Source: Acidovorax sp. 106 (lineage in GTDB: Bacteria; Pseudomonadota; Gammaproteobacteria; Burkholderiales; Burkholderiaceae_C). From it: a stretch of 64,000 nucleotides of DNA. Position numbers and translations under genes: made by a program. The DNA lies in assembly GCF_003663825.1 (NCBI RefSeq), contig NZ_RCCC01000001.1, positions 4,162,501 through 4,226,500 of the forward strand. Direction: 5' to 3'. Under the pieces are notes generated by a model that saw only the letters and a program-made list of their open reading frames with translations, was not told the origin of the DNA and ran no database searches. The stretch's first letter is position 1; the number at the start of each line of letters is the position of its first letter. Shown here one piece after another: positions 859 to 63,856 of this stretch.

Positions 859-1015
859 GCCGGTTTTCTTAGGAAAGCTGCTCGCGATGCAGTGGCTTTC
901 AGCGGATGGTGATTCGACCGCATCACTAGGCGGGGCGCCGCAGACAGTGCTTTGGCACGGCAAGGCGCCCCAACGACGTGAGGCGGTTGAAGGACCATAC
1001 GCCACAAGGATAAGA

Positions 1016-30705: not shown

Positions 30706-30876
30706 CTAGGCATGTCCTGCACAACTCCCTGCGGTCTGAGATAGCGCGGCGTCGGACGGTTCGCTGCGTTGCTTTTCTCGTCAATAGCCCGGCTATTGGC
30801 TGCCAAAAGACGCCTTGCGCCCCATCTCGATCCGCACTACCACCGCCTCGCGAGGGTTATGCAGAACATCCCTAGC
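30706..30876. repeat. Family B long palindromic element, copy 1
   Basis: About 170 bp. Left end CTAGGCATGTCCTGCACAAC and right end GTTATGCAGAACATCCCTAG are near-perfect inverted repeats. The centre is AATAGCCCGGCTATT, with CTGCGTTGC on its left and GCCTTGCGC on its right. The whole element is an imperfect palindrome centred near 30790. It lies just after the DUF2189 gene. Confidence 0.7.
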
Positions 30877-30912
30877 TGTTACAGTGCCCCTCTACTTCAG
30901 AAAGCAAACACC

Positions 30913-31092
30913 TTGGCAACACCTAACTACGGATACGAAAAACGCCAGCGCGAACTCGCTAAGAAACAAAAGAAAGAAGAGAAGCTGAGAGCCAAAACAC
31001 AGCGCCGGCCTGACGATCCGCACGCTGGGCCAGATGCTGGTGACCAGGCCGCTCAAGCGCCTTCTGCACCCGCGGACCCTGCGTCCAGTTAA
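30913..31092 (+). CDS. Small basic hypothetical protein
   Basis: 59 residues starting at a TTG (ATPNYGYEKRQRELAKKQKK), with a highly charged Lys/Arg/Glu first half and an Ala/Pro/Asp-rich tail. Short proteins with a YEKRQxELAKK pattern occur in many betaproteobacteria; their function is unknown. The GAAAG sequence just upstream could serve as a ribosome site. The start is uncertain. It is followed by a strong bidirectional terminator. Confidence 0.55.
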   Translation: MATPNYGYEKRQRELAKKQKKEEKLRAKTQRRPDDPHAGPDAGDQAAQAPSAPADPASS

Positions 31093-31156
31093 TGGCGGGC
31101 ATTCATGGCTTGGCTGATGTCTCACTCAGAAGCCTCGCAATGGAATGACCCACTCA

Positions 31157-31212
31157 AGAGCCCGTGCGCTGCCTTTTTCAAAAAAAGGCAGCGCACGGGC
31201 TCTTTGTTTTTG
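31157..31212. terminator. Strong intrinsic terminator (bidirectional)
   Basis: A 22 bp stem (AGAGCCCGTGCGCTGCC with its complement GGCAGCGCACGGGCTCT, flanked by T and A runs) ends in CTTTGTTTTTG. It separates the small gene from the convergent esterase gene. Confidence 0.9.
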
Positions 31213-31236
31213 CTTGTCAGTGCCTGCCCGTGGCTC

Positions 31237-31911
31237 TCAGCGCAGCAGCTTTTTTAGCTCTGGCCACACATTGGCCAGCATCTGCGGGTGGGCCTCGGCC
31301 TTGGGGTGGATGCGGTCGGCCTGAAACAAGCGCGTAGGGTCTGCGCCATCGGCCACCCCTTTGAGAAAGAACGGCACCACCGCCGCCTTGTTCGCCTTGG
31401 CCACCCCTTCAAACACCGCTGCAAAGCGGTTGGCATAGTCGGTGCCGTAGTTGGGCGGCACCTGCATGCCAATCAGCAGCACCTTGGCCCCGGCTTTTTG
31501 GGCTGACTGGGCCATGAAGCCCAGGTTGTCTTTCGTGTTTTGCAGCGGCAGGCCACGCAGCGCGTCGTTGCCGCCCAGCTCAATCACCACTTGGCTGGGC
31601 TGGTGCTGTTGCAGCAGCGCGGTAATGCGCGAGCGGCCGCCCGAGGTGGTCTCACCGCTCACACTGGCATTGATGACCCTGGCGTTGATCTTCTCTTGCG
31701 CCAATTGCTTTTCCAGCAGGGCAACCCACCCGGTGCCGCGTGCCAGGCCGTATTCCGCACTCAATGAGTCTCCCACCACCAAAATCACGGCGGGCTTGCC
31801 TGCAGCCGCCTGGGCGGTGCCTTGGGCAAACCCCCCCGGGCTGGAAATCCCCATGGCAAGGGCGGAGGCTGTGGTCAGGATAAAGTGACGCCGATGCAGA
31901 TTGCGAATCAA
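31237..31911 (-). CDS. SGNH-family arylesterase/lysophospholipase (TesA-like)
   Basis: 224 residues. GDSL block I (VVGDSLSAEYGLARGTGW), block III (GGNDALRG) and the catalytic DRIHP block V are all present, giving a TesA/arylesterase-type periplasmic hydrolase. The N-terminus HRRHFILTTASALA looks like a twin-arginine or Sec signal. The start is a TTG at 31911, with AAAGG upstream; it is divergent from the ybbA gene with only 15 bp between start codons. The E. coli tesA gene also neighbours ybbA, so the arrangement is conserved. Confidence 0.9.
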   Translation of the reverse strand: MIRNLHRRHFILTTASALAMGISSPGGFAQGTAQAAAGKPAVILVVGDSLSAEYGLARGTGWVALLEKQLAQEKINARVINASVSGETTSGGRSRITALLQQHQPSQVVIELGGNDALRGLPLQNTKDNLGFMAQSAQKAGAKVLLIGMQVPPNYGTDYANRFAAVFEGVAKANKAAVVPFFLKGVADGADPTRLFQADRIHPKAEAHPQMLANVWPELKKLLR

Positions 31912-31926
31912 AGTAAAGAGCCTTTC

Positions 31927-32622
31927 ATGTCCGAATCCCCCTCATCGCCCGTGACACCCATTATTGCGGTGGAGCATGTGTTCAAGTCGGTGACGGATTC
32001 CACCGGCACGCTCGACATTTTGCGGGATATTGATTTCCGCCTGGCGCCCAGGGAAACCGCCGCCATCGTGGGCGCTTCGGGTTCGGGCAAGAGCACCTTG
32101 CTGTCCATCATTGCCGGGCTAGACACCCCCACGCGGGGCACCGTGCGGCTGGATGGCCATGACCTGTTCGCGCTGAACGAGGACGACCGTGCCGCGCTGC
32201 GGGCGCAAAAGGTGGGGTTCGTCTTCCAGAGCTTTCAACTCATGGGCAACCTCACGGCGCTGGAGAACGTGATGCTGCCGCTGGAGCTGGCCGAGCGCCG
32301 CGATGCCCGCAAGGCCGCCACCGAGATGCTTCAGCGCGTGGGCCTGGGGCAACGGCTGGGGCACTACCCCAAGGTGCTCTCGGGCGGTGAGCAGCAGCGC
32401 GTGGCCTTGGCCCGTGCGTTTGTCGTGCAACCGGCCTTGCTGCTGGCCGACGAACCCACGGGCAGCCTGGACTTCGCCACGGGCGAATCCATCATGCAGC
32501 TGATGTTTGAGCTCAACCGCGAGCAGGGCACGACACTGGTGTTGGTGACCCACGACCGGGGGATTGCCGCGCAGTGCGAGCGGCGGATCACCATCGACGC
32601 TGGGCGGGTGGTTGAGGATTAA
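31927..32622 (+). CDS. ybbA: ABC transporter ATP-binding protein (YbbA type)
   Basis: 231 residues. Walker A GASGSGKST, signature LSGGEQQRVALARA and Walker B LLLADEPTGSLD are intact, in the LolD/MacB-type subfamily that partners with FtsX-like permeases. The ATG at 31927 is 15 bp from the divergent esterase start. The partner permease YbbP, which normally follows, is absent: the next 300 bp hold two repeats and then rlmB. It may use a permease encoded elsewhere. An AAAGAG sequence precedes the start. Confidence 0.87.
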   Translation: MSESPSSPVTPIIAVEHVFKSVTDSTGTLDILRDIDFRLAPRETAAIVGASGSGKSTLLSIIAGLDTPTRGTVRLDGHDLFALNEDDRAALRAQKVGFVFQSFQLMGNLTALENVMLPLELAERRDARKAATEMLQRVGLGQRLGHYPKVLSGGEQQRVALARAFVVQPALLLADEPTGSLDFATGESIMQLMFELNREQGTTLVLVTHDRGIAAQCERRITIDAGRVVED

Positions 32623-32630
32623 GTTCAAGG

Positions 32631-32690
32631 AAAAATAGCTGCTCGCGCTTATTGAATAAGCGCGAGCAGCTATTTAATTGATAGCAATCA
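32631..32690. repeat. Family A palindromic repeat, copy 6
   Basis: AAATAGCTGCTCGCGCTTAT and ATAAGCGCGAGCAGCTATTT are exact 20 bp inverted repeats around a short loop, followed by TTAATTGATAGCAATC. It lies 10 bp after the ybbA stop, so it probably terminates that transcript. Confidence 0.85.
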
Positions 32691-32752
32691 TAGGCCTCTG
32701 AGCACGGCCCTTGGCAGTTTCTCTGCCTGCGCCTTGGGGGCCAAGCGTCTCA

Positions 32753-32896
32753 AGTTGGAGATTCGTTTCATAAAGATGCCAAGCATCGCCGCCATGCTGC
32801 GTTGCGCATCCTCGCGATAGCGACGGCTATCGCTGTGGTTTGCGCCTTGCCTGATGACGATTTCGACCTCTTTATTTCATTAACGAACTTCCAACT
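32753..32896. repeat. Family B long palindromic element, copy 2
   Basis: About 144 bp. Left end AGTTGGAGATTCGTT and right end AACGAACTTCCAACT are inverted repeats. The centre GCGATAGC-GAC-GGCTATCGC has CTGCGTTGC to its left and GCGCCTTGCC to its right, the core shared with copy 1. It sits between ybbA and rlmB. The core of the sequence between 32623 and 32931 is explained by this element and copy 6 of family A, and I see no gene there. Confidence 0.7.
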
Positions 32897-32931
32897 CGGG
32901 ACACTGGCGGCCGCGCAACGATAATCCCTGC

Positions 32932-50115: not shown

Positions 50116-50160
50116 AAAAGAGGCTGGCCTGCCCAGTCCACGCCGCCGCGTTGGTGACTT

Positions 50161-50275
50161 AGAGCGGCTCACAAAACTCAGCGAAGCGGCCCTGGCTAGG
50201 CGTTGCGTCGCAGGCAGTACGCGAGGTACGACAAGACGGAACAACGACGCCAGGGGAGTTTTGTTAGCCGCTCTT
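50161..50275. repeat. Family B long palindromic element, copy 3
   Basis: AGAGCGGCTCACAAAACTC at the left and GAGTTTTGTTAGCCGCTCTT at the right are 18-of-19 inverted repeats. Inside, GGCGTTGCGTCGCAGGCAGT and GACGGAACAACGACGCC flank the centre GTACGCGAGGTAC. It ends 1-2 bases before the stop of the cold-shock/DUF1294 gene. Confidence 0.75.
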
Positions 50276-51017
50276 AGCCCAGCCGTGTACCCAGCCAGCC
50301 GCTCACCCAGGCCCCCAGGGCGGCGCAGTGCACAACGATGGTGAGCCAGTACATGGCGCGGAACTCTGCCTTGCTGGATTTGTGGCGCATGCTTTGCTGC
50401 GCCAGCCACGCGGCAGGCCAGCCGCCCAGCAGGCTCAGGGTGTGCAGGTTTTTCTCAGAGGTGCGCCAGCCCCCGCGTTGGGCCGCATTCTTGTCGGCGG
50501 CGTACACGCAAAGGGTCAACACATTCAGGCCCACCAGGGCGCCCAGCACCCACAGGGGCAAGCGCTCCGTCCACAGGCCCCAAGCGATCATGCCCGCCCA
50601 CAGCAGCATGAGTGCGTAAGCCAGCCCAGCGCCCGCTGCGGGTCGGCCGTCGCCCGCACGGACTCGGGCCGATGGGCGCGCTACCGAACGAGGGGCGCGT
50701 GCGGTATCGTGGTGGGGCAATGCTTTGCTGGCGGTGGAGCGTGGGCGTTGCCGTTCTCCCGGCGCACCCAAGGCACTCGATGAACGGGCGCTGGGCACTG
50801 CAGTGGCCGCAGCCCCTGCGGGCTGCACCGCCACGGCGCGCGGGCCTTTGCCGCCCACATGCACGTCGTCATACACCACCGCCATCCCTTCGCGCGGGGG
50901 TGTGGCGCTGCGAAAGTCCTTGAGGTGAAAAAACACGTCGGCCGTGCCGCCGGGGCTGCGAATGAAGCCGAACGCGCGGGTGCTGTCCCAGCGGGTGATG
51001 GTGCCTTGCTTTTGCAT
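50274..51017 (-). CDS. Cold-shock domain fused to a DUF1294 membrane domain
   Basis: 247 residues. Residues 1-65 form a CspA-like OB fold with the RNA-binding face visible in KQGTITRWDSTRAFGFIRSP and DVFFHLKDF. A disordered Ala/Ser/Arg-rich linker follows, then from about residue 130 a DUF1294 membrane domain (AADKNAAQRGGWRTSEKNLH and LLGGWPAAWLAQQSMRHKS). The fusion joins RNA binding to the inner membrane. CSD-DUF1294 fusions exist in other proteobacteria and have no known role. The ATG at 51017 starts the OB fold. Confidence 0.9.
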   Translation of the reverse strand: MQKQGTITRWDSTRAFGFIRSPGGTADVFFHLKDFRSATPPREGMAVVYDDVHVGGKGPRAVAVQPAGAAATAVPSARSSSALGAPGERQRPRSTASKALPHHDTARAPRSVARPSARVRAGDGRPAAGAGLAYALMLLWAGMIAWGLWTERLPLWVLGALVGLNVLTLCVYAADKNAAQRGGWRTSEKNLHTLSLLGGWPAAWLAQQSMRHKSSKAEFRAMYWLTIVVHCAALGAWVSGWLGTRLG

Positions 51018-63665: not shown

Positions 63666-63740
63666 GGGTGATTAGCTCAGCGGTAGAGCACTGCCTTCAC
63701 ACGGCAGGGGTCACATGTTCGATCCATGTATCACCCACCA
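63666..63740 (+). tRNA. tRNA-Val (CAC), copy 1
   Basis: 75 bases with CCA encoded. Acceptor stem GGGTGAT pairs with ATCACCC, the anticodon stem CTGCC pairs with GGCAG around the loop TTCACAC, giving anticodon CAC, and the T arm GTTCGATCC is normal. Reads GUG valine codons. The same sequence is repeated 41 bases later. Confidence 0.95.
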
Positions 63741-63781: not shown

Positions 63782-63856
63782 GGGTGATTAGCTCAGCGGT
63801 AGAGCACTGCCTTCACACGGCAGGGGTCACATGTTCGATCCATGTATCACCCACCA
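63782..63856 (+). tRNA. tRNA-Val (CAC), copy 2
   Basis: Identical over its full 75 bases to the first copy, with anticodon CAC. Probably processed from one transcript with the first copy, since no promoter is seen in the 41 bases between them. Confidence 0.95.

Follow-up and report, generated by a model that had tools for sequence, protein, structure and literature searches.

Bacterial MITEs are commonly seen as decayed copies of insertion sequences (IS) whose interior is unimportant. A review of prokaryotic MITEs, in its available text, ties them to decayed transposons and names no shared interior (PMC10969869). MITEPsy1 of Pseudomonas syringae, in the part of its account available here, is a 100-nt element related to IS5, with 18-base inverted tips, a duplicated CTAG or YTAA target and a helper-type IS (ISPsy2, 1194 nt), and its movement has been demonstrated (PMC3189936). 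In the coral CMITEs the interior is better conserved between families than the tips, and a possible aid to transposition was suggested by the authors in the available sections of that paper (PMC2872659). According to the excerpts at hand, REPs are 20-40 bp in length, carry a GTAG or CGTC tag and are moved by RAYTs (PMC3733652, PMC6006769), and Correia/NEMIS, ERIC and YPAL are hairpin-forming, MITE-like repeats that are mostly intergenic (PMC2229807, PMC2759123).

The window analyzed here is a stretch of 64,000 bases, positions 4162501-4226500 of a host genome that consists of one contig of 4,884,083 bases. Three palindromes had been predicted in it, and reading and folding the sequences bore out their positions. 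Element 1, a MITE of the family designated B1, occupies 30710-30871, with the functional hairpin strand on the minus strand and CTAG on both sides (30706-30709 and 30872-30875). Element 2, a MITE of family B2, lies at 32746-32903 (minus strand) between CAAG and CTGG, which are diverged flanks of the CTAG type. Element 3, a MITE of family B3, lies at 50162-50273 (plus strand) between copies of TTA (50159-50161 and 50274-50276). Their core hairpin modules, at 30743-30841 (minus), 32776-32873 (minus) and 50172-50270 (plus), were matched by the structure model R2 with E-values, rough as all R2 E-values are, of 1.9e-11, 4.6e-8 and 2.9e-7, respectively. This model was made from 18 cores that included B1 and held no sequence of the B2 or B3 families. 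A fourth core hairpin with other arms, missing from the original prediction's count of three, was matched at 902-999 (plus strand, E 3.3e-7) and its sequence read; the frames on either side of it end at 858 and start at 1018 or 1021. Over the 64,000 bases R2 gave these four core matches, and the next two had E-values of only 1.2 and 2.4. The core strings said to be common to all three palindromes, namely CTGCGTTGC, a central palindrome and GCCTTGC, are common to elements 1 and 2; element 3 has neither CTGCGTTGC nor GCCTTGC on either strand, and its kinship with the other two is visible only through R2.

Other features were also observed in the window. A 41-base inverted repeat family (AGCTGCTAGCGCTTATT type), separate from the palindromes, has six copies (23342, 32637, 37301, 49376, 50071 and 53027). 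A strong inverted repeat (AGCCCGTGCGCTGCC...) at 31157-31204 is followed by a T-run and is terminator-like, and two identical 75-base tandem copies (63666-63740 and 63782-63856) look by eye like tRNA genes with a CCA end.

It is well supported that the palindromes belong to a modular MITE superfamily built round a covarying, strand-biased hairpin. We consider it probable that this hairpin is strand-specific and aids propagation, a function in propagation being the best-supported guess for the core. The window holds one member each of B1, B2 and B3. Searches of the host genome gave 10 near-full copies of B1 (77-100% identity) and one internally deleted copy, 6 full copies of B2 and, by our own count, 32 near-full copies of B3 with 2 more interrupted by other elements (~34 total). 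The arms had been thought specific to each copy; instead, each arm type marks one repeat family and is kept within it. The arm tips behave as terminal inverted repeats, and the elements are short, non-coding and repeated (families of 10, 6 and 34 copies), as MITEs are. Seven elements with other arms (L025-L031), which make up family B4, carry the B2 core at 82-88%. Further core families of this genome are B5 (L013, L014, L016, L017 and others), those of L143, L147 and L150/L151, B8 (L444-L452) and that of the element at 902-999; the core-bearing elements measure ~112-280 bp. B8 has nine copies of ~100 bp, most of them near-identical, with ATTCCATTTCC tips, and one (L444) is interrupted by an IS with a GAGCGTGTTATGAAC tip. 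A B3 copy at C1:2365484-2366459 is split by an IS of ~867 bp with a 273-aa frame, one of four copies of that IS.

The palindromes are MITEs, and their families can be read as mobile DNA from the inverted tips, the target duplications in some copies and, at one locus, an empty site in a relative. Target duplications at the insertion boundaries, raised in the original prediction, were found in part of the copies. Identical 4-base flanks occurred in 4 of 10 copies of B1, 1 of 6 of B2 and 3 of 8 of B4 (8/24 together; six CTAG, one CAAG, one CTGG), and identical 3-base flanks of the form TNA in 9 of the 29 located copies of B3 (30 given) and 2 of 7 of B5 (11/36 together). Target-site duplication is seen also in a nested case (L029), where a B4 copy stands inside a B3 copy with CTAG on both sides, and CTAG is single in intact B3 copies. 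A 1001-base query from the B2 locus gave matches in 39/40 genomes of the genus, own included; among the matches listed it was unbroken only in the host genome and in G022 (95%). The left match stops at query position 385 in both G017 and G004, and the right match starts at 621, with 29 bases between; alignment of G017 showed that the B2 element is missing at this locus.

Matches to PF01609 were present in 28/30 genomes of the genus, own included. None of the 13 matches in the host genome had B1-B4 tips, and the transposases of this genome were rejected as parents of these families. Tips of possible helpers were read at 29 loci from the PF01609 search and in 20 further stretches. Both tips of an IS of ~1190 bp were near those of B1 at five loci (L189, L190, L191, L193, L202; 2-4 mismatches in 20) and near those of B4 at six (L171, L172, L188, L194, L195, L198; 1-4 mismatches in 22), and an IS of 884 bp had tips near B5 (L173; 3-4 mismatches in 21). 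Another locus (L168) is an IS with a GCAACGCTGAACAAG tip. NCBIfam placed L189, L194 and L168 in the IS5 family above cut-off (model IS5_4), as it did one of the two frames of L173 (model IS5_3), the other falling below. At two loci an IS adjoins a B1 element with TTAG or CTAG in common (L190, both IS ends visible; L200, one end). A helper IS with B2 or B3 tips was not found in the host genome or at the loci read from the 30 genomes of the genus. As judged from their letters, the tips of three families of the host genome (B1, B4 and B5) resemble IS5-family elements of the same genus. These could be ordinary IS5-family MITEs with a functionless interior, descended from one ancestral MITE whose tips diverged and whose stems were mended by template switching. 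The flank duplications and the nested copy agree with such a descent, as does the sequence that B1, B4 and B5 share beyond the core; the invariant loops and the strand bias described below lead us to consider it unlikely.

The functional strand of the core reads 5'-C[NAGGC]GC-S1-[GCA]-S2-loop-S2'-[AA or GA]-S1'-GC[AACGNN]G-3'. The stems of the core (the outer S0, then S1 and S2) change by compensation, and AGGC and GCAAC stay. Raw harvests of cores by regular expression were mostly chance (2990 matches, 633 after one filter; 1807 in another harvest), and motif and pairing filters left 129 matches in 24 clusters. The single-member clusters L244, L257, L281 and L295 were judged chance and dropped, and the single cluster of L309 was dropped later; L257 and L309 also had real matches, which were kept. 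Covariation was tested with a pair counter using shuffles and slides, the shuffle counts not being probabilities and the alignment rows sharing ancestry. In alignment A2 of the diverse cores, 83.6% of cells were paired against 51.6% when shuffled, the structure having been named from the same sequences. Changes on both sides occurred in 22 of its 23 pairs (shuffled mean 19.6, reached by 6/500), and the covariation score was 0.757 compared with 0.191 shuffled and at most 0.229 when slid. In A3, which holds 18 of 22 group-II rows (left out: L143_1, L147_1, L321x_1, L330_1), 89.6% of cells were paired, 30/32 pairs were double-changed, and the score was 0.820 versus 0.222 shuffled and at most 0.185 slid. 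RNAalifold on 42 cores gave double changes in 25/27 pairs; 41 of the 42 rows were kept after L213, in which the apex is replaced, was dropped. The paired percentages are inflated, since the cores were partly gathered by pairing filters; the effect is smaller on the slide control and on how varied the pair types are.

Template switching can mend palindromes and so produce double changes without selection. Such mending would erase mismatched loops, yet AGGC and G.AAC were invariant in 42/42 diverse cores aligned on one strand. It also predicts no strand bias, yet on the strand reading 5'-GCAAGGCGC...GCAACGC-3' the single mismatches between Watson-Crick neighbors were 42 G.U, 4 A.C and 65 other (41 rows). 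More G.U was found in 25 rows and more A.C in 2, with 14 ties (one-sided sign test, p = 2.8e-6), and counting by arm family gave 14 vs 2 with 6 ties (p = 0.0021). The bias was weaker when the neighbor rule was lifted (G.U 87, A.C 42). No filter was seen to favor G.U, because most rows had been gathered by a filter counting Watson-Crick pairs only and R1, a model of 18 cores, was built on the opposite strand; some added rows passed filters allowing G.T, which are strand-blind only for stems inside the core. First-pass counts on the opposite strand, in which shared positions are repeated within families, were G.T 24, A.C 138 and other 180 (4.3 vs 29.2 when weighted by cluster, chance clusters included). 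Mismatches of the family consensus sequences on the functional strand were G.U 10 and A.C 4. The predicted constraint on a folded strand is thereby upheld by both the covariation and the wobble bias of one strand.

Distinct variants at paired sites within families of the host genome gave G.U/A.C ratios on the functional strand of 17/14 (B1), 11/4 (B2), 20/20 (B3) and 7/11 (B4). Together these amount to 55 G.U and 49 A.C, with little bias, B2 alone leaning in the direction of the core bias, and this near evenness counts in favor of descent from one ancestral MITE with a functionless interior. Because the variants within families are near even, the bias is mainly a property of the spreading lineages and not of the copies after insertion, and selection seems to act on those lineages. 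If the hairpin were a structured RNA serving the host, such as a signal for mRNA stability or processing like Correia/NEMIS or ERIC that was spread by MITEs, this would account for the strong covariation, for the G.U bias of one strand and for the location of most elements outside predicted genes (15/125 inside predicted ORFs; 16 without a neighbor). Such a role agrees poorly with the little wobble bias among the family variants and with the random orientation of the functional strand, which was co-directed with the upstream gene in 42/94 cases and with the downstream gene in 48/94 by a home-made gene prediction. The random orientation and the even variants would argue against a role in host mRNA and for a role in propagation. 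Rfam also gave no match on the hairpins scanned: at the gathering threshold, Rfam 15 had no matches in 30000-51000 of the window, at E ≤ 5 nothing overlapped elements 1 or 2, and on 20 loci the four sub-threshold matches were all off the hairpins. We therefore regard a host-used RNA as improbable, and the absence of Rfam matches on the hairpins scanned agrees with the original prediction of a possibly uncharacterized structured element. With respect to replication, the 52 copies were divided 21 vs 31 between the strands, against an indistinct skew.

The reach of the core was estimated with both structure models. R1 gave 44 matches in the host genome at E ≤ 0.01, matches in 40/40 genomes of the genus and, at E ≤ 1e-4, in 16/114 genomes of the class, the host genome included in both. 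R2 gave 52 copies in the host genome at E ≤ 0.001 and, at E ≤ 1e-5, matches in 56 genomes of a 200-genome sample of the phylum, own included, many of them in one family (f133) outside the host's class; 20 candidates were scored per genome in this sample, and the counts per genome are lower bounds. At L331, L345 and L362, where a contig end shortens the flank, reading at a fixed offset gave unrelated sequence. Inverted pairs of cores ~105 bases apart were found in G103, G054, G111 and G064 and in the host genome (C1:4734400-4734606, pair 4734400/4734511). A short hairpin, CCCTTCGGG or one like it, often stands between the paired cores. One such core-bearing element, searched against plasmids, matched 4 records at 72-76% (Azotobacter 2, Halomonas 1, Pseudomonas 1), and a 141-base query had no matches in a phage collection. 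A literature search that included sequence strings, with subscription papers and preprints outside its scope, recognized no description of this core.

Exchange of arms round a common core, as had been proposed, was supported by the variety of tips. A pattern for the B2/B4-type core matched at least 120 stretches in named genomes, and the matches listed (80) included Acidovorax, Rhizobacter, Ramlibacter, Comamonas, Massilia, Pseudoduganella, Castellaniella and Dechloromonas. Word-based clustering divided the 110 sets of arms unstably, into 2, 7 or 11 clusters, and tips were used instead. With 18 tip strings chosen by eye, 95 of 125 pattern matches had an identical listed tip at both ends, the other 30 falling outside the strings; 17 tip sequences, several mutually related, were present at both ends. 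Arms paired within their own element with a median of 0.67 (n = 110), versus 0.33 when arms were swapped (n = 429). In the genus, tips differ on one body, as B5-type bodies bear either AAGAACCTGTTCAA tips (L132, L135) or AAGAACGTGTTTGC tips (L131, L137, L139). The likeness of the B2 and B4 cores on different bodies, together with the inverted core pairs, could suggest that the core is an independent REP-like hairpin, moved as ssDNA by an enzyme of its own and repeatedly inserted into MITEs of different IS. Against this, in the families that were read the pairing of the arms continues to the edge of the core and shows no insertion boundary, and no core lacking paired arms was noticed among the cores collected for other purposes; we judge such an origin very improbable.

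Under the preferred reading, a modular MITE superfamily whose hairpin aids propagation, the core would fold as a single strand, either RNA or ssDNA, and act in cis; selection would keep it for propagation and not for any benefit to the host at the individual sites. Acquisition of new tips by the core would found new families, and the proposed module would therefore outlive any one transposase. More tentatively, and short of an even chance in our estimation, the elements may represent a new class, in which a strand-specific hairpin present across much of the phylum promotes its own propagation in cis, in the form of RNA or ssDNA, and survives by changing transposon ends, as a bacterial counterpart of helper-switching parasites with a conserved core. 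Here it is the ends of a MITE that change, while its interior persists and is constrained in fold and strand, which suggests a route by which a non-autonomous parasite outlives the loss of its helper. The question of whether MITE interiors work in transposition becomes directly testable, and the covariance model locates tens of elements within one genome (52 in the present host).

Compared with known systems, the present elements are like MITEPsy1 in being short MITEs, probably of the IS5 kind, with inverted tips and a target duplicated in part of the copies; the description of MITEPsy1, in its available part, mentions no structured core common to other tips (PMC3189936). The CMITEs are the nearest idea in print and likewise combine a conserved interior with variable tips, but they are eukaryotic with piggyBac-like helpers, and the available text reports no strand-specific fold or covariation (PMC2872659). 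A strand-specific, covarying core over a phylum is in neither of these accounts, as far as their accessible text extends (PMC3189936, PMC2872659). A single core under many tips is likewise absent from the available accounts of Correia/NEMIS, ERIC and YPAL (PMC2229807, PMC2759123), and the printed YPAL/RU-2 sequence in the accessible pages is by eye without AGGCGC...GCAAC (PMC2759123).

REPs and BIMEs, as portrayed in the excerpts, share with the cores imperfect hairpins, conserved unpaired letters, action of one strand and frequent inverted pairs, whereas the present cores lie in elements of ~112-280 bp with inverted tips and target duplications (PMC3733652, PMC6006769). No GTAG or CGTC tag of the REP kind was visible by eye in the aligned cores. 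In the attC sites of integrons, one folded strand with conserved unpaired bases is recognized by its structure, and the site terminates in paired R boxes, which contain GTT/AAC. The fixed letters of the present core differ in being internal loops inside IS-type tips. By analogy, both REPs and attC sites may work in part as the core does.
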